DNA from: Candidatus Binatota bacterium
GTDB taxonomy: Bacteria > Desulfobacterota > Binatia > UBA1149
Assembly (NCBI GenBank): GCA_012960245.1
Contig: DUBO01000044.1
Coordinates: forward strand, 1-64,000
Reading direction: 5' to 3'
DNA: 64,000 nucleotides
Part shown: piece after piece, positions 11,753 to 63,272 of the stretch
Layout of the letters: each line of letters begins with the position of its first letter
Numbering within the stretch: the first letter of the stretch is position 1
Notes under the pieces: model-generated
Seen by the model: only the letters and a program-made list of their open reading frames with translations
Databases searched by the model: none
Told to the model about the DNA's origin: nothing
Made by a program: the position numbers and the translations under genes

Positions 11753-12200
11753 GGCGACGTTCCTCCTTGTTTAAAACCCCACGCTCCCCTCGCGGTGTTT
11801 CCTTCCTCTCTGCTTGCAGCCTACTGCTGAGCGCCACCCTCGGTCAACGAAATAGAGAGCTCGGAACAGATTTTTTGCCCGGAGGCTCCAAGAGCATAAG
11901 ATTGCGTGTATCGTATGGAAACAAACTGGAATGCTTTGCGATGGCGCAGAGCAACTGCCCTGTTGCCTGACCGATACACTTGGGAGCGAACTCCATCCCT
12001 CGTTGCGCTTGCCTCAATGCAAAAACCGAATTGGCCCCGCCCTTTATGAACCTGATTCGGAGCGAGCGGAACCTGGCTTAAATCCCTTGGACTCGGGCTT
12101 TTCTGGCCAGTGGCTTGCCCCCCTCCCGGCTCGGCTGCTAGACTGTCTAGTCGGCCTGCCATAACCCCTCGGACCCCTACCCGGCCAAAAGAGACCAGCC
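11753..12200. other. Non-coding interval of 448 bp
   Basis: No convincing gene is present; short frames here have no ribosome-binding site or recognisable product. It separates two divergent genes and should contain both promoters. I see weak versions of the TTGCA-N4-YGCAA palindrome at 11936-11949 (TTGCGATGGCGCAG) and 12009-12022 (TTGCCTCAATGCAA), an inverted repeat GCAAC-N6-GTTGC at 11951-11966, and CTAGACTGTCTAG at 12138-12150 next to a promoter-like sequence. Confidence 0.5.
12115..12144 (+). promoter_or_regulatory. Possible sigma-70 promoter for the TPR-protein gene
   Basis: TTGCCC and TAGACT are separated by 18 bp, with TG shortly before the -10 box; each box matches 4 of 6 consensus bases. 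The -10 box is inside the palindrome CTAGACTGTCTAG (12138-12150), which could be an operator. The TTG start codon of the TPR gene lies 57 bp downstream. This is a pattern match only. Confidence 0.3.
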
Positions 12201-13683: not shown

Positions 13684-15365
13684 CGAGGCCCTGACCGGGC
13701 GCGATCTATCATGGAGCGCGTTATCTCGCTTCCCAGCACGAACGACACCACCATGTAGCAAGCGCCCCCGGCTCCCACCAACAACGGCAACGCCGTTAAA
13801 GCTCCACCCGGCAGCTGGGCGACCAGGGGCTTAGCGACAAAGAGCACGGCGCCCATGACCGCAGTGGCCACGAGTTGAACCATCAGCTCGCGGTTAATAA
13901 TCCTTCGGCCGAAATCCGGAAACTGCCGGGCCACGAAAAAGAACAGGACCGCAGCGTTGCATATTGAAGCCAGTGCGGCCCCCAGGGCGAGCCCTGCGTG
14001 GTCGAAGTCGGCCACTCCCATAAACTCAACCGCGCCGGCCAGAGCCTGGCCCGCCCACCAGTCCACGGGCCTGACAGCAGGCCCCATGAAAGCAACGTCA
14101 AAAACTACATTCGCTACCAGTGCGACAACAGCCGCCATTACCGGCAGCGATGGCTTTTTCATGGCGTAGAACACGTTAACAAGCACCCGGACTGAAGCCA
14201 CGCCAAGTAGGCCCAGGCTGCTCGCGCGCAGCGCGAGCGCCGTGGCAGCGGTGTCAGCGGCAGAAAACTGCCCGCGCTCAAAAAGAGCAGACACTATCTC
14301 CGGCGCCAGCAACCACATAGCCAGGGCCGCGGGAATACACAGCGACCACGCCATCTGCAGCGACCAGGCGAGGCTGGCTGCCATGCCCCGGGTATCGCCG
14401 GCTGCAGCCTGCTCACTCAAACGGGGCAGCGCTGCCGTTCCTATGGCAACGGCGATTATGCCCAGCGGAAACTCAAATATTCGATCAGCGTACCAGAGCC
14501 AGGATACGCTGCCCTCCTGGAGCACAGAAGCCAGGATGGTCGATACCAGCACGTTGATCTGGTAGACCGCTGCTCCAAAAACTGCGGGGCCCAGGAGCAC
14601 ACCCACCTGCCTGACAGCCGGATGGGTCGGCCGCCACGAAGGCACTGGGTTTATCCCCTCCTTCAGCAGCGACTTGATCTGTACAGCAAACTGGAAAACC
14701 CCGCCCACGAGGACCCCCACGACCAGAGCCATCACGGCGGGTACAAGCCTCTCGGCCAAGGCGACCGCCGCGATAATAATGCTGATATTCAATAGCACGG
14801 GGCCGGTGGCGGGCGCTGTGAAGCGCCGATAAGAATGCAATGCCCCCATGGCCCAGGCTGCCATCCCCACCAGTAACAAGTACGGAAACAGCGCCCTGGT
14901 AAGCATTACCGCCAGTTCAAACTGGCCCGCATCAGCCGAAAAACCCGGGGCAAAAACCGAGACCACTTCATCAGCAAATAAGACCCCAGTCAGCGTCAGG
15001 AGAAGCAGGCCAAGCAACGCGGCGCCGCCCACAGCAGCGATGGCGCGATTGCCCTCAAGTCTCCCCTGCCTTCCGATAATCCCACTGAAGACAGGAACAA
15101 AAGCGATGCTTGCCGCCCCTTCGGCCGCTACACGGCGAAACAGATTGGGGATACGAAAGGCAACAAAAAACGCGTCCATGCCACCCGAAGCGCCAAAAAG
15201 GCCGCCAAGAACGATATCCCGCGCGAGACCGGATACCCGGCTCACCGCGGTCAACGCCCCCACCCTGACAGCGCCGCCTGCTATTCCGCCCGCAGCGTCA
15301 CTGTCCGCCTCGTGGCTGGCTTGACCGGACCCGCCGCGCTTGTTAATGTCTGCGATTCCGGTCAC
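13674..15365 (-). CDS. murJ: Lipid II flippase MurJ (MviN)
   Basis: 563 residues and about 14 membrane helices. The N-terminal part ALTAVSRVSGLARDIVLGGLFGASGGMDAFFVAFRIPNL is the MurJ signature, including the Arg residues of the central cavity. The MOP-superfamily protein flips undecaprenyl-linked peptidoglycan precursor across the inner membrane. About 30 charged or polar residues precede the first helix, slightly longer than usual, so an internal start is possible. It is divergent from rpsT, a neighbour found in many proteobacteria, with 83 bp between. Confidence 0.93.
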   Translation of the reverse strand: MTGIADINKRGGSGQASHEADSDAAGGIAGGAVRVGALTAVSRVSGLARDIVLGGLFGASGGMDAFFVAFRIPNLFRRVAAEGAASIAFVPVFSGIIGRQGRLEGNRAIAAVGGAALLGLLLLTLTGVLFADEVVSVFAPGFSADAGQFELAVMLTRALFPYLLLVGMAAWAMGALHSYRRFTAPATGPVLLNISIIIAAVALAERLVPAVMALVVGVLVGGVFQFAVQIKSLLKEGINPVPSWRPTHPAVRQVGVLLGPAVFGAAVYQINVLVSTILASVLQEGSVSWLWYADRIFEFPLGIIAVAIGTAALPRLSEQAAAGDTRGMAASLAWSLQMAWSLCIPAALAMWLLAPEIVSALFERGQFSAADTAATALALRASSLGLLGVASVRVLVNVFYAMKKPSLPVMAAVVALVANVVFDVAFMGPAVRPVDWWAGQALAGAVEFMGVADFDHAGLALGAALASICNAAVLFFFVARQFPDFGRRIINRELMVQLVATAVMGAVLFVAKPLVAQLPGGALTALPLLVGAGGACYMVVSFVLGSEITRSMIDRARSGPRQP

Positions 15366-58051: not shown

Positions 58052-58762
58052 CTAGTTTCCTATGTTCGGAAGCCGCGTGCTCGGCTCCCTGATGGGTATC
58101 AGTCCGCGAATGTACTGATCAACCCAATTGTTGGCGTTGGCGATCCAGGTACGGGGCACGAACACCACGTCATTGGGTCCCAGCAGCGCATCGGCGCTGG
58201 CATCTCCGTCTTTTATCATTGCTTCAAGGTCGAGCCTGTCGGCTTCGTAAGCACCGGGCCCCTTCCAGCGAACAAGCAGCACGCTGTCAACCTTGGCCGT
58301 GCGCTTGAGCCCGCCGCGCTCAACTATGGCCCTGAAGGAAGTCATACCGGGCCTCAGTGACACATAGCCGGGATCCCCGACTTCGCCACCCACGTAGACG
58401 CGCCTGACCGCCATCTCACGGATCACCACGCTCACAGTGGGTTCACGGTAGGTCACCGACGCCCTGCTCAGCAGGTCCCTGCTCAAGTCCCAGGTCGTCA
58501 GGCCGGCCGCCCTGAACTCCCCGAGGGAAGGCACGCCAACGTGGCCATCACTCCTGACGGTGGCCACGGTGTCCAGCTCCGGGTGGAAAGGAAACTTGAT
58601 ATCGATCACGTCGCCCACCACCACGCTGTACGGCAGCGTACTCCCGTCGGCCGCCAGGGCCTCCGAGGGGATAAATGGGCCTTTTGTTAATTCCATGGCT
58701 GCCGAGCAGCCCGAAAGCACAACCGCCGTTACCAGGATTAAAGTTCTGATTATCGTCATCAT
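58052..58762 (-). CDS. Polysaccharide export lipoprotein (Wza-like, SLBB)
   Basis: 236 residues. The signal peptide ends in the lipobox VVLSGC. PYSVVVGDVIDIKFPFHPELDTVATVRSDGHV is the Poly_export domain, followed by SLBB-like domains (RRVYVGGEVGDPGYVSLRPGM). The C-terminal helix of E. coli Wza is not evident, so the outer-membrane passage may need another protein. It is the first gene of the 30-kb operon; a sigma-54 promoter lies 71 bp upstream of its start (computed start point). Confidence 0.9.
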   Translation of the reverse strand: MMTIIRTLILVTAVVLSGCSAAMELTKGPFIPSEALAADGSTLPYSVVVGDVIDIKFPFHPELDTVATVRSDGHVGVPSLGEFRAAGLTTWDLSRDLLSRASVTYREPTVSVVIREMAVRRVYVGGEVGDPGYVSLRPGMTSFRAIVERGGLKRTAKVDSVLLVRWKGPGAYEADRLDLEAMIKDGDASADALLGPNDVVFVPRTWIANANNWVDQYIRGLIPIREPSTRLPNIGN

Positions 58763-58843
58763 AGTGTTCTTTCCGTTCTGTAGTCATTGCCCCGGCAGAC
58801 CGCATGGAGCGGCATCCGGGGCGAGATTTCTCTCCCCAGGGGG

Positions 58844-58859
58844 AGCAAATATAATGCCA
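58844..58859 (-). promoter_or_regulatory. Sigma-54 (-24/-12) promoter of the polysaccharide operon
   Basis: The minus strand reads TGGCATTATATTTGCT, matching TGGCAC-N5-TTGCW at all but one position, with correct spacing of GG and GC. The predicted start point is near 58833, 71 bp before the wza-like ATG. An NtrC-family activator is encoded 2.4 kb upstream. Confidence 0.75.
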
Positions 58860-59023
58860 CGATATCCCCCATCTGCGGGGACCTTTCTTCCCCCGACCGG
58901 GGGGGGATTCCCACCCATCTGGCCGCTCGGGCACCCCGCCCGGGTGGGTTTTTGTGATTATGGAGCTTCATCGATTAAACTGCCTTTATTCGTTGCCGGA
59001 GGCTCGGCCCCGACTCTGCGTCA

Positions 59024-59037
59024 TTGCATAAACGCAA
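59024..59037. promoter_or_regulatory. Activator-site candidate TTGCA-N4-CGCAA upstream of the wza-type promoter
   Basis: TTGCATAAACGCAA fits the motif TTGCA-N4-YGCAA found also before the sigma-54 activator gene. Its centre is about 198 bp upstream of the predicted sigma-54 start point, a normal distance for an enhancer-binding protein. Confidence 0.5.
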
Positions 59038-59066
59038 GGCTGGGCGTTTCCGCACTGCCGCGTCAC

Positions 59067-60899
59067 TCAAGCCCCGGGTATCGAGGCGGGCGAAACATCA
59101 GTGGCCAGCTGGCCCGCGGGCTCGAGGCTTGCTTCGTGTACCGCTGAGTTAACAACGAGATCGGCCACGCGAAGCGCCGAATCGCGATCGCCGAAGCCGA
59201 CCGCGAACAGACCCAGTCCGCGTCCGTCTTCCAACCTGCGAGTCTTCAAGGACACCCCTGCCTTCTGGCTCGTCACGAGATCGCGCATACCGTCAAGGCG
59301 TTCCAAACTAACGCTCGCCACCAACAGTACCTGCCAGCTGCCGGGCTTGCCGGTGCTGACCATTGCCCGCGCGTCGTTGAAAGGCAGGAACAGGGTACCG
59401 CCAACCGCCAGCTTCCTGGGGTTACCCAGCTCAGGGTTGGCTTCAAAAATACGATCCAGCGTTGCCGGAAGAGTGTTTCCGTAAGCCGCCTCGGCGATGT
59501 CCCAGATCGTATCGCCGTTTTTGACCACCACATCCCTACCCGCAGCTACACCTGCGCCCGCAGTTATGTGCAAGGCCGGGTTTGCCGGGCGACTGGTATC
59601 GTAGAGTCTCGCGGCGGTTGACCTGGCGAGTATCGCTGCGAGCCGCGTGCTGGCAGAAACACCATCGAGGCGTTCCTCGCTGGGCTTGCTGGCGAACGCG
59701 GTAGCGGCTGCTTCAGCGCCGAGCGCCTCAGGCGAGGGGCTTGCCAGGATACTGCCGGTCAATACGGGCAGCTCCGCGGTTTCGCTCGCCGTAACAACGG
59801 ATCGCGTGTCCACTTCCTCGACCCGGCTGACAACTGCAGCCGCCGAGGGAAAGCTTTTCTCGGCGACAAAAGAGAGCGCCTCGACCGCAGGGACTGGGGG
59901 GACAGCAAGCGCCCTCTCCTGCCCGGTGTCGGCCAATACGGGGTAAGCGGGACCTTCTGCCGCCTGCCCGGCCACGTTTGCCCAGGCGAAGCCCACTACC
60001 AACGAAGCGGCCACGGCCGCAAACGCTACACGACGGCCCTTTTGGCCCATAGCGCAGCGCATGCGGGCGATCGCCGCCCAGGAGCCAAGCCCGGTGGAGC
60101 CCTCCACATCGCGCACCGCTTCGTTCATCAGCCTGCACCCGACCCGCTTGCGTCCGGCGGCAAAAGCTATGAGCAGGGCGTTGTCACACACCACGTTCAC
60201 CAGGCGGGGTATCCCTGCCGAGGCCATCCACACCAAGCGGAGCGCCGTAGAACTGAACACGCCGACCTCTTTGCCACCCGCGCCCCTCAGGCGCGTGGTC
60301 ACGTAAGCGCTGATTTCGCTCTGGCTCAAGGGCTCCAGCCTCGCTCGAGTACCGATGCGCTGCTGCAGCTGCCGCAGCGAGGGATCCCTGAGTTTATCTT
60401 CGAGTTCGGGCTGTCCCGATAGAACTATCTGCAGCGTTTTTTCCTTGGATGTTTCAAGGTTGGTGAGCAACCTCAGGCCCTCGAGCACGGCGTTGGGCAA
60501 GGTCTGGGCTTCGTCTATGAGCACGACCACGTTGCGACCCTCGACCAGGGATTCAAGGAGAAAACCGTTTAACCTGTCGAGCATCCCGAGCCTGGCGCAG
60601 CCCTCAACGTCAAGACCGAGTTCCATGCAGATGTACTCGAGCAGTTCATCAAAACTGACGCCGGGATTAAATATAAACACCACCGTGCTCTCGTCCTGTA
60701 GCTCTTCGGCGACGCGTTTGAGCAGCGTGGTTTTACCAGTACCGGCCTCGCCCACCAGTGAGATGCAGCCCTTGCGCGCGCGTATCCCGTACAGCACTGA
60801 CGCCAATGCCTCCCGTGTAGTCGGGTTGACGTAATGAAAACGCGGGTCGGGTGTCAGGTTGAAGGGGTCTTCCGACAATCTGTAAAAATGAGCGTACAT
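59067..60899 (-). CDS. ExeA-like AAA+ ATPase with LysM and SPOR-like domains
   Basis: 610 residues. The N-terminal ~270 form an AAA+ ATPase of the ExeA/XrtA-associated type: YAHFYRLSEDPFNLTPDPRFHY, Walker A GEAGTGKTT (50-58), Walker B VVLIDEAQ (~125). A membrane helix (FAAVAASLVVGFAWANVAG, ~290-310) is followed by a long Ala/Ser/Pro linker, a LysM domain (VVVKNGDTIWDIAEAAYGN, ~458-508), and a C-terminal SPOR-like domain (SWQVLLVASVSLERLDGM, ~520-600). Topology: ATPase in the cytosol, LysM and SPOR in the periplasm binding peptidoglycan. It may couple export to the cell wall. It has its own sigma-54 promoter. Confidence 0.87.
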   Translation of the reverse strand: MYAHFYRLSEDPFNLTPDPRFHYVNPTTREALASVLYGIRARKGCISLVGEAGTGKTTLLKRVAEELQDESTVVFIFNPGVSFDELLEYICMELGLDVEGCARLGMLDRLNGFLLESLVEGRNVVVLIDEAQTLPNAVLEGLRLLTNLETSKEKTLQIVLSGQPELEDKLRDPSLRQLQQRIGTRARLEPLSQSEISAYVTTRLRGAGGKEVGVFSSTALRLVWMASAGIPRLVNVVCDNALLIAFAAGRKRVGCRLMNEAVRDVEGSTGLGSWAAIARMRCAMGQKGRRVAFAAVAASLVVGFAWANVAGQAAEGPAYPVLADTGQERALAVPPVPAVEALSFVAEKSFPSAAAVVSRVEEVDTRSVVTASETAELPVLTGSILASPSPEALGAEAAATAFASKPSEERLDGVSASTRLAAILARSTAARLYDTSRPANPALHITAGAGVAAGRDVVVKNGDTIWDIAEAAYGNTLPATLDRIFEANPELGNPRKLAVGGTLFLPFNDARAMVSTGKPGSWQVLLVASVSLERLDGMRDLVTSQKAGVSLKTRRLEDGRGLGLFAVGFGDRDSALRVADLVVNSAVHEASLEPAGQLATDVSPASIPGA

Positions 60900-60985
60900 A
60901 GCCTGCTGCCTCCGCGATGCTCGCTACCCGTTCGGTGCCTGCCTGGCTCCGAGCTCGGACGGGACTCCATCGCAGTGAGCAAATG

Positions 60986-61001
60986 AGCAACCGCCGTGCC
61001 A
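60986..61001 (-). promoter_or_regulatory. Sigma-54 (-24/-12) promoter of the ATPase gene
   Basis: The minus strand reads TGGCACGGCGGTTGCT, a full match to TGGCAC-N5-TTGCW. The predicted start point is near 60975, 76 bp before the ATPase ATG, which has GGAGG upstream. Confidence 0.82.
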
Positions 61002-61015
61002 TGCCCCCCCCTGTT

Positions 61016-61057
61016 GGGTAGGAGTTACCCCCCGAGTGGGTATTCCAGAAATACCCA
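61016..61057. promoter_or_regulatory. Two related inverted repeats upstream of the ATPase promoter
   Basis: GGGTAGGAGTTACCC (61016-61030) and TGGGTATT-N5-AATACCCA (61037-61057) share GGGTA/TACCC ends. They lie about 41-82 bp upstream of the predicted start point, between the sigma-54 promoter and the activator gene. They may be binding sites for a second regulator or for a DNA-bending protein; alternatively they are part of a transcription terminator for the activator gene, though no T-tract follows. Confidence 0.4.
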
Positions 61058-61148
61058 GTGTTTACGCGTCTTTCCAAGGATTTTACTGGACGGGACGCGA
61101 AAAGCCCTCCCCCCCTGTGGGTGGGGCGAGCCTTGCGAAATCAAGAGA

Positions 61149-62573
61149 TCATTGCAGGCCTGCACGGCCAGGCGGGTAGTTACCCGACTCCCGGAACTCC
61201 TCGCGACGTAAACCGTGGGATTTCATCTTGCGGTGCAAGGTGGCCGCGTCGATCATCGCGTGTCCCGCGCTGACCGCTATGGCTCCCGCGTTACGCGACA
61301 GAAGGGACTCCAGGTACTCTTTTTCAGCGCGCCGGAGGTACTCTTTGAGCGGTAAGCGAAGGGTTCCGCTCGCCGCCTGCCCACCCATACCGCGGAGTTT
61401 ACCCGGGGCGGTTGAGGGAATTTCAATCTCCGACAAGGCCGTCCCCCTGCACTTGATAATGGCCCGCTCAACCACGTTTCTCAGTTCACGGATGTTGCCT
61501 GGCCAGTGGTAACTCATCAGTTCACGAAGCGTCTTGTTCGAGGTGCTCTTGATATGCCGTTCCACGGCTATCGGGTTTGATTTCAACAGGTCAGCCACGA
61601 GCAGGGGCACGTCCTCGATCCTGTCCCTGAGTGGAGGCAGGTCAACCGGCACCACGTTTATGCGGTAGAAAAAATCTTCGCGCATTTCGCCGCGCTCAAC
61701 CATCTGGTCGAGGTTCTGATTGGTTGCCGTTATTACCCGAAGATCTACCTTCAACAGCCGATTTCCGCCGAGTTTTTCGATCTCCCTCTGCTCCAGCACT
61801 CGCAGCAGCTTGAGCTGCATGGCCAGCGAGATGCTCTCGACCTCGTCGAGAAATAAGGTGCCCCCGCTGGACAGTTCTACCTTGCCCACACGGTCGGCCA
61901 CCGCGCCCGTGAAGGCTCCCCTTTCGTAACCAAAGAGCTCGCTCTCGAGCAGGGTTTCGGGAAAAGCCGCGCAGTTGATAGCCACGAAACGGCCTTCTTT
62001 GCGGCGACCCTGGTAGTGGATCGCCCTGGCTATGAGTTCCTTACCCGTACCCGATTCTCCAGATATGAGAACCGTAGCATCGTTGTGAGCAAGAGACTCT
62101 ACGGTCTCGAAGAGTTCGTGCATGACCGGGTTGCGACTGATCATGTTGGCAAACGAAAAACGTTCGCTCAGCTGACCACGCAGGTAGCTGATCTCGTCGA
62201 TCAGCTTGCGCTTCTCCATGACCTTTTCGGCAGCAAGAAGTATGTCTTCGCGCTCAAAAGGCTTGGTGATGTAATCTTCGGCGCCGTGCCGCATGGCTTC
62301 GACAGCACCCTTTATAGAGGCGTAGCCAGTGACGATGATCACCGGCATATCCGGCCAGCGCTCGCCAACTTCGGTCGTGAGGCTCAAGCCGTCGCTGCCC
62401 GGCATTTTCAAGTCGACCAGGGCCAGTGAAAACGCCGAGTCTTCGAGTAATTCCAGCGCCTCGCGAGCAGTCCCCGCGCACTCCACGGTGGCATTTCGCT
62501 CCCTGAAAAGGTCTTCCATCTGTCGACAGATCAAGGGATCGTCGTCAACGACCAGTATTCTCGCATTTTCCAT
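61149..62573 (-). CDS. NtrC-family sigma-54-dependent response regulator
   Basis: 474 residues. Receiver domain (1-120) with phosphorylation site Asp ~54 in ALVDLKMPGSDG; AAA+ domain with Walker A GESGTGKELIAR and the sigma-54 contact loop GAFTGA; a C-terminal Fis-type helix-turn-helix (AGAIAVSAGHAMIDAATLHRKMKSHGL). The segment resembles PrsR-type regulators of exopolysaccharide loci. No sensor kinase is encoded in the window. It lies beside two sigma-54 promoters and two palindromes in its own upstream region, consistent with autoregulation. The HTH is slightly unusual, with an extra stretch before the recognition helix. Confidence 0.93.
   Translation of the reverse strand: MENARILVVDDDPLICRQMEDLFRERNATVECAGTAREALELLEDSAFSLALVDLKMPGSDGLSLTTEVGERWPDMPVIIVTGYASIKGAVEAMRHGAEDYITKPFEREDILLAAEKVMEKRKLIDEISYLRGQLSERFSFANMISRNPVMHELFETVESLAHNDATVLISGESGTGKELIARAIHYQGRRKEGRFVAINCAAFPETLLESELFGYERGAFTGAVADRVGKVELSSGGTLFLDEVESISLAMQLKLLRVLEQREIEKLGGNRLLKVDLRVITATNQNLDQMVERGEMREDFFYRINVVPVDLPPLRDRIEDVPLLVADLLKSNPIAVERHIKSTSNKTLRELMSYHWPGNIRELRNVVERAIIKCRGTALSEIEIPSTAPGKLRGMGGQAASGTLRLPLKEYLRRAEKEYLESLLSRNAGAIAVSAGHAMIDAATLHRKMKSHGLRREEFRESGNYPPGRAGLQ
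61152..61165. promoter_or_regulatory. Weak activator-site candidate upstream of the ATPase promoter
   Basis: TTGCAGGCCTGCAC matches TTGCA-N4-YGCAA in 9 of 10 positions. It overlaps the end of the activator gene. Its centre is about 184 bp upstream of the predicted ATPase start point, a distance similar to that of the site before the wza-type promoter. Confidence 0.35.
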
Positions 62574-62627
62574 TCTTTCTTACCCCGGGCTCTCGTTCAG
62601 TTATCCGCGACGCCGCGGCCACAACTA

Positions 62628-62641
62628 TTGCAGGTCTGCAA
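62628..62641. promoter_or_regulatory. Palindromic operator 1 before the activator gene
   Basis: TTGCAGGTCTGCAA, within the longer palindrome TATTGCAGGTCTGCAATA (62626-62643). It is centred 61 bp upstream of the activator ATG and 32 bp (three helical turns) from operator 2. Confidence 0.55.
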
Positions 62642-62659
62642 TAACGCTACGCGCCCCAG

Positions 62660-62673
62660 TTGCAGTCGCGCAA
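62660..62673. promoter_or_regulatory. Palindromic operator 2 before the activator gene
   Basis: TTGCAGTCGCGCAA, within GTTGC-N6-GCAAC (62659-62674). Its centre is 32 bp from that of operator 1, so two dimers would bind on the same face of the helix. Confidence 0.5.
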
Positions 62674-62686
62674 CCTCTTTCTCGTC

Positions 62687-63076
62687 TCAGGAATCGAGGC
62701 CGACGTAACTGTCGGCTTCATCTGCCGCTAGTATCCGCTGCCGTGTAGCGACCGATCCCAGGCCCAGGCCTTCGCAAACGTTGTTGAAAGAAAAGGGTGA
62801 GTTCCAATCGTTGGTCTTGATCCAGAATTCGGCCTGCCGTGCCAGTATCTCCGGGTTCTGCCGGGGGCGTCGGAGCTCAAGGCGAAAGCAGGCAATTGCA
62901 TCCTCGAGAATAGCGAGCATGAGCGCCTGCTCAGGCGTCCACTCGATGTGCTTGTTGAACTCGTCGGGCTCCGGTCCCCCGCCGTAGTGAAAAATCTGGC
63001 CGCTGAGCCTCTCGCCGTCTAACTCTTTGCCCGCGGTGGCTACTGCTGCCTGTTGCTCGTTACAAGTCGTGTTCAT
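62687..63076 (-). CDS. Small protein, paralogue of the 11372-11752 protein
   Basis: 129 residues from the ATG at 63076, which follows GGAGGAAAGGGA; a longer frame starts 39 bp upstream. Family not named. The core EQALMLAILEDAIACFR, RQAEFWIKTNDW, FSFNNVCEGLGLGSVATRQRIL matches the protein encoded at 11372-11752. The last segment resembles a helix-turn-helix. It lies 113 bp upstream of the sigma-54 activator gene on the same strand and has its own TTGCA-N4-TGCAA palindrome, so it could be a partner or regulator of that system. Confidence 0.7.
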   Translation of the reverse strand: MNTTCNEQQAAVATAGKELDGERLSGQIFHYGGGPEPDEFNKHIEWTPEQALMLAILEDAIACFRLELRRPRQNPEILARQAEFWIKTNDWNSPFSFNNVCEGLGLGSVATRQRILAADEADSYVGLDS

Positions 63077-63106
63077 TCCCTTTCCTCCCAGGATTGCGTA
63101 TTCGCC

Positions 63107-63120
63107 TTGCAGCATTGCAA
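63107..63120. promoter_or_regulatory. Palindromic operator before the small-protein gene
   Basis: TTGCAGCATTGCAA, inside the perfect 18-bp palindrome CCTTGCAGCATTGCAAGG (63105-63122), 31 bp upstream of the ATG. It has the same 7-4-7 layout as the palindrome at 62626-62643. Confidence 0.55.
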
Positions 63121-63272
63121 GGTCGCGGCCAGAAGGAGCTGCCGGATAAAAGGGGCTGTTTACCGGGGTAAACGCGGAAACCGCGCGCTATCAGCGCACG
63201 AACTTGAACGCTGGCGCAGGCTCGGCGCACAGCAATGAACGCGCGAACCGGACCCGGGCCGATCGCGTGCGC

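Follow-up and report, generated by a model that had tools for sequence, protein, structure and literature searches.

A TTGCA-N4-YGCAA palindrome conserved around a polysaccharide gene cluster of Binatota and its probable NtrC-family binder

The window, i.e. the whole stretch of 64,000 nucleotides that was analysed, belongs to a Binatota MAG (order of UBA1149) whose genome comprises 2,818,760 bp. It carries a polysaccharide cluster (glycosyltransferases, sugar epimerases, a Wzy-like gene, chain-length and tyrosine-kinase genes) headed by three genes hereafter called R, A and E. E is the first gene of the polysaccharide cluster, which extends down to about 29.5 kb. These genes, the small gene S and the predicted DNA elements around them are listed in Table 1. 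For comparison, we used 13 genomes of the order (own genome included) in four families, f1 to f4, where f1 denotes the window's genus, and 45 Binatia genomes of other orders. Since the 13 genomes are related and hence non-independent, families and control counts are reported in place of one p-value. The gene order acyl-CoA dehydrogenase, S, (X), R, A, E, chain length, kinase is kept in 12 out of 12 genomes of the order from the four families, and the 13th genome (G012) shows the same order minus S. The additional gene X, of about 200-280 aa, lies between S and R in f2, f3 and f4, at the place of the window gap 62574-62686. Its product has no match to any Pfam model; an H..N motif and a degenerate ATP-binding end give it a sequence resembling a histidine kinase core. 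In f2 and f4, a further gene of about 115 aa is found beside X. Both genes have been lost from the S-R gap in the window's genus, and a weak X-like gene is present on contig C2.

Table 1. Genes and predicted regulatory elements at the locus, with their positions in the window unless another locus is named
Feature	Position	Strand	Description
E	58052..58762	-	polysaccharide export protein (Poly_export + SLBB), profile matches
sigma54 promoter of E, TGGCATTATATTTGCT	58844..58859	-	predicted +1 at 58833; 10/11 consensus positions
CCC-N6-GGGG, just upstream of the E sigma54 promoter	58867..58879	-	recurrent element
further CCC-N6-GGGG place	~58888-58906
putative enhancer site of E, TTGCGTTTATGCAA on the minus strand	59024..59037	-	about -198 from +1
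A	59067..60899	-	XrtA/PEP-CTERM-type ATPase with LysM domain, profile matches
sigma54 promoter of A, TGGCACGGCGGTTGCT	60986..61001	-	predicted +1 at 60975; 11/11 consensus positions
CCC-N6-GGGG, just upstream of the A sigma54 promoter	61005..61018	-	recurrent element
R	61149..62573	-	activator, response regulator of the NtrC family with receiver, sigma54 AAA+ (GAFTGA) and a putative helix-turn-helix at the C-terminus
putative enhancer site of A	61152..61165	-	about -183 from +1
operator site 2	62628..62641	-	reads 5'-TTGCAGACCTGCAA; covers +1, 2 bp downstream of the predicted -10
predicted sigma70-like promoter of R	62644..62673	-	TTGCGC (62673-62668), 18 bp, TAGCGT (62649-62644)
operator site 1, TTGCGCGACTGCAA	62660..62673	-	32 bp upstream of site 2; first half = predicted -35
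S	62687..63070	-	small protein, 127 aa; class-wide multi-copy family
palindrome TTGCAATGCTGCAA before S	63107..63120	-	at this gene in genus f1 only
sigma54 promoter of S, TGGCCGCGACCTTGCA	63116..63131	-	9/11 consensus positions
f3 export-gene element GGATTTGTTGTAACTTT...ATGCTCTAT	L044 ~14612-14645 (operon orientation)		same place in L045, L046, L047, L048, L053

The palindrome TTGCA-N4-YGCAA (TTGCANNNNYGCAA) occurs in four exact copies, namely the two operator sites, the putative enhancer site of E and the copy before S, and in one copy with a single mismatch, the putative enhancer site of A; one more such mismatch copy lies at a distance, at 12009. These five copies, as well as the spacing of 32 bp between the two before R, had been correctly given in the preliminary description. 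Six strand-wise exact matches were counted in the window for 0.27 expected, a number reached by none of 100 shuffles. Pattern scans of the whole own genome returned seven exact places, four of them within these 4.1 kb, against 3+3 for the reversed-pattern control. Exact copies are therefore not scattered: only three lie outside the window in 2.8 Mb (C27:23095, C43:74057 and C50:198882), and two of these three, in or beside open frames, were not counted as targets. When one mismatch was allowed, 46 places were obtained versus 43 with the reversed control, and the loose motif alone was discarded as a genome-wide signal. Because one-mismatch copies are at the genome background, specificity lies in the full motif together with its position and not in the bare word. 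The clustering of the palindrome is real, yet the bare word is insufficient for calling targets.

Two of the exact copies form a pair downstream of S, directly before R in f1 or before X-R in the other families. One lies over the -35 and the other just past the -10 of a promoter predicted, like all promoters here, from consensus matches. A TTG (-35), 17-18 bp and TA...T (-10) precede site 2 in every genome, with the layout TTGAAA/TTGCAA-N17/18-TANNNT in relatives. An equivalent of operator site 2 was found in all 13 genomes and thus in the four families, with GCA-N4-TGCAA invariant. Site 1 stands exactly 32 bp upstream, over the -35, in f1, f2 and f3; it is weakest in the two f4 genomes, where little beyond the -35 remains. 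Among all spacings from 15 to 100, that of 32 bp was the best (summed score of 209 vs. a mean of 158.6, sd 8.6), and six representatives only gave a score of 94 at this spacing (mean 73.7, sd 4.2). The genome that has lost S (G012) possesses GTGCAAATGTGCAA with TTGAAAAATTGCCA 32 bp before it. Site 1 is dictated in part by the -35, and site 2 is not. An extension of the operator to relatives of R outside the order (L096, L097) was rejected, as only single sites without a 32-bp partner were found there.

The preliminary description had also claimed two sigma54 promoters, before A and E, with sites at enhancer range. Both are correct, with site centres at about -183.5 (A) and -197.5 (E) in the window, distances being taken from the site centre to a +1 set 12 bp after the C of the -12 box. 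A third sigma54 promoter, before S, had been missed; the three were compared with the consensus TGGCAC-N5-TTGCW, in which GG and GC are 10 bp apart (Table 1). The site of A is centred at -183.5, -182.5 and -182.5 in f1 (window genome, G001 and G002, respectively) and at -183.5 in both G005 and G007 (f4). That of E is centred at -197.5, -198.5 and -198.5 in the same three f1 genomes and at -198.5 in G003 (f2). The site-to-promoter distance is thus constant to 1 bp, for A in f1 and f4 and for E in f1 and f2. In the window, the site of A overlaps the last codons of R. The equivalent sequence is non-coding in G001, where R ends earlier (L038 10816-10851) so that the -183 site falls outside the gene, and in G007, where it lies beyond the stop codon of R. 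Conservation of the site is not a coding effect, since it is outside R in these two genomes, and on this comparison the overlap in the window genome is a matter of chance. No such enhancers were found at A and E in f3, although this family has kept the operator and most of the sites before the gene H described below. The f3 export gene has no sigma54 promoter, and most members of the family show a conserved GGATTTGTTGTAACTTT...ATGCTCTAT-like element that is probably another type of promoter.

It is extremely improbable that the copies arose by chance or as by-products of the TTGCA of sigma54 -12 elements and of -35 boxes. The copy before S does overlap a -12 element and operator site 1 a -35, but operator site 2 and the enhancers form no part of a core promoter and are conserved at fixed distances across families, and the control counts are near zero.

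The copy before S had been correctly located, and has to be down-weighted as a regulator site: the S sigma54 promoter has its -12 element in the left half of this palindrome. A sigma54-like promoter precedes S in the 12 genomes out of 12 that have this gene. With at least half of it explained by the -12 element, we rejected this copy as an enhancer or operator, and as a sign of regulator binding it would be weak evidence. Inverted repeats of CGTAC, e.g. CGTACGCTCTTGTACG, precede the S sigma54 promoter in f3 (D-S gaps L044-L048 and L053), which suggests a different activator for S in that family.

The preliminary description had proposed either the activator or the small protein as the binder of the palindrome. 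For S, this is very improbable. The gene adjoins R and has a copy at its own promoter in f1, but this promoter copy is half a -12 element, and the pair before R is retained in G012, which has no S ortholog; S was rejected as the binder on this ground. Moreover, the S family is present throughout the class, with roughly 1-17 matches per genome, including genomes where the composite signal described below is at background. This family (core E..LM.AxLEDxxxC...FSFNNVC) is matched by no Pfam model. The predicted structure of S (AlphaFold and Foldseek) has a well-modelled, four-helix core without a structural match in the PDB, and it did not convincingly match any DNA-binding fold.

To look beyond the window, we searched for composites of the palindrome and a sigma54 promoter. 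With TGCANNNNYGCA at 140-170 bp from TGGC-N7-TTGC, the 13 genomes gave 8 matches vs. 0 in the control, and 7 of the 8 fall within the cluster studied here. At 85-115 bp, 9 matches vs. 0 in the control were found within the order, compared with 4 vs. 5 in the 45 Binatia genomes of other orders. Another search combining the motif with a sigma54 promoter gave 6 matches vs. 0. Gaps of 55-85 gave 6 matches vs. 2 controls; the f1 match and the G009 match inspected lie in open frames, and this class was set aside as background. Seven of the nine matches at 85-115 bp precede one gene, H, which encodes a GerE/LuxR solo regulator of the 101-aa type (C50:198419-198646 in the own genome). When the 13 H genes were inspected directly, 11 proved to have a sigma54 promoter and, between -127 and -143, a site; in the own genome this site is the exact copy C50:198882. 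No H site was seen in G006 and G008, in both of which the R operator is present. Sites also precede a second copy of H in G010 (-145.5), secreted-protein genes in G011 (-145.5) and G003 (-138.5), and, in G012 (-145.5), a gene whose secreted product contains NHL-looking repeats. By the preliminary description itself, random scatter of the copies or a lack of conservation before orthologous genes would have refuted its claim; neither was observed, and sites are kept before orthologous genes in four families. The putative regulon that it put forward is supported, and is larger than that description could see.

Some further genes around these loci deserve mention. A large gene lies downstream of H (L249, L250); in the own genome it encodes PDZ and S41 peptidase, and G003 has a similar gene. 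The neighbourhood of H also encodes a TPR protein and contains a VKOR/DsbA-like gene. A secreted family of about 180-206 aa with VDSP.P... has sigma54-like promoters in f1 and G011 (L191, L203, L204, L231); its TTGCA site was found only at the G011 gene, and the one protein tested has no Pfam match.

A regulon with several loci could be in the hands of a global regulator encoded elsewhere and unlinked to the cluster. We consider this quite improbable: in every genome the most constant operator is that of the R operon, as is typical of autoregulation, and no enrichment was detected in other Binatia.

A second element, CCC-N6-GGGG, recurs near sigma54 promoters, with 18 matches vs. 1 in the control across six genomes. 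A, E, H and one secreted-protein gene have it a short way before the -24 box, and it was also seen at L187, L188, L191, L203, L204 and L210, i.e. at several loci in several families. The R promoter lacks it, and it comes as near as -45, which is unusual for an enhancer. H or some other factor may bind this element.

As a DNA-binding protein with a site before its own gene, H could itself bind the palindrome, and it is the main alternative to R. It would then control R, the polysaccharide genes and itself, while R would act through CCC-N6-GGGG. The site before H in 11 of the 13 genomes and the enrichment of CCC-N6-GGGG near sigma54 promoters are in line with such an arrangement. H is, however, a GerE-only protein with no AAA+ domain, and it would be unusual for such a protein to act at sigma54 promoters from sites 127-198 bp away; G006 and G008 have the R operator without an H site. 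The absence of CCC-N6-GGGG from the R promoter and its position as near as -45 also speak against this reading. This exchange of roles is unlikely. A feed-forward arrangement of R and H at the same promoters can be proposed tentatively: R, bound to its TTGCA-N4-TGCAA enhancer at a base-pair-exact distance, would switch on H, and H or another factor would bind CCC-N6-GGGG by the -24 box.

The protein R has features expected of an enhancer-binding activator. Its receiver domain (Response_reg, 97.5 bits) has the phospho-acceptor D54 and its AAA+ domain (Sigma54_activat, 229 bits) the GAFTGA motif, both invariant in the alignment of the order. For a C-terminal Fis-type helix-turn-helix, no Pfam HTH match was obtained; profile matches of AtoC, NtrX and PrsR reach residue 455, and the helix DAATLHRKMK is invariant across the order. 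Regulators of the NtrC family have defined DNA sites before their sigma54 promoters, and here such sites are predicted at conserved positions. At distances of over 100 bp from a sigma54 promoter, an AAA+ enhancer-binding protein is to be expected; as R is one and its gene always accompanies the most constant operator, we infer that R is the binder. Across the genomes, no other candidate DNA-binding protein is linked to the operator throughout. Of the two binders that had been proposed, the activator is thus supported, by this linkage, by its enhancer-binding kind and by the enhancer distance of most sites, and the small protein is disfavoured. Against R, two more distant relatives (L096, L097) with a recognition helix nearly identical to that of R show no clear 32-bp pair. 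The lack of enhancers at A and E in f3, the two genomes with no H site, the site before H and the part of operator site 1 owed to the -35 also count against R, as does the missing Pfam match for its C-terminal helix-turn-helix.

R probably binds the palindrome, activates from a distance and represses its own promoter; binding by R, activation through the distant sites and repression through the proximal pair are all three inferred from comparative evidence. The sites with their positions and conservation, and the control counts, are observed. A single site at about -127 to -198 of A, E and H, and of secreted-protein genes in relatives, would serve as an enhancer for R, from which R would reach the sigma54 polymerase through a loop in the DNA. 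On the sigma70-like promoter of its own gene, R would sit as a pair of dimers on two sites 32 bp, i.e. three turns, apart, and R bound over the -35 and the start point would limit its own synthesis.

NtrC represses its own promoter, as is proposed here for R. The two also share the type of protein (a response-regulator enhancer-binding protein) and, as proposed for R, a palindromic site with TGCA arms and sigma54 activation from a distance. In enterobacteria, the NtrC consensus is TGCACCAnnnTGGTGCA (PMC8743547). The arms are 9 bp apart in NtrC sites but 4 bp apart here (TGCA-N4-TGCA), and the putative targets here are genes for polysaccharide export and secreted proteins and that of a LuxR-type regulator. 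In addition, R scores 375.3 bits with the NtrC model TIGR01818, under its equivalog cut-off of 558.6. PrsK-PrsR of PEP-CTERM/exosortase systems likewise has an NtrC-type regulator beside XrtA-type polysaccharide genes, with sigma54 promoters and an upstream motif read as an activator site (Haft 2006, PMC1569441; PMC9850573). Motif 1 of PrsR has TTTACA at its end, about 63 nt ahead of the motif of the promoter (PMC1569441), whereas the motif here is TTGCA-N4-TGCAA at -127 to -198. R reaches 363.7 bits with the PrsR model TIGR02915 (equivalog cut-off 502.6), and no exosortase was found among the cluster genes scanned. With this misfit of both score and motif, R was rejected as a PrsR/PEP-CTERM regulator. 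The best-scoring NCBIfam model for R is AtoC (NF008469), with 413 bits, again under the equivalog cut-off (714). AtoC of E. coli binds inverted repeats before a sigma54 promoter, but its verified site consists of two 20-bp repeats that together form a 40-bp palindrome, and its targets are acetoacetate genes (PMC3118216). DVU0110 and DVUA0057 of Desulfovibrio vulgaris, two-component sigma54 activators of exopolysaccharide/biofilm genes, resemble R in their type and in the link to polysaccharide genes (PMC4641369); no matching TTGCA/TGCAA motif appears in the text of that paper. By the curated models, R is not NtrC, AtoC or PrsR itself; it is a member of the broad NtrC family, in which it would work as an autoregulated activator.

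The comparison shows how a motif claim made on one genome fares: the operator and the enhancers survive, while the copy on the -12 element and S as binder fail. Enhancer sites usually tolerate shifts in distance. The distances of 183 and 198 bp, constant to 1 bp between families, are therefore unusual for enhancers and raise a question about the intervening DNA. From sequence only, a regulator from an uncultured phylum is thus given a putative DNA site, operator layout and list of targets, and the genes predicted to move together are those for polysaccharide export, the LuxR-type regulator and secreted proteins. If the feed-forward arrangement is true, extracellular polysaccharide and secreted proteins of Binatota would be controlled by a sigma54 switch with two inputs.
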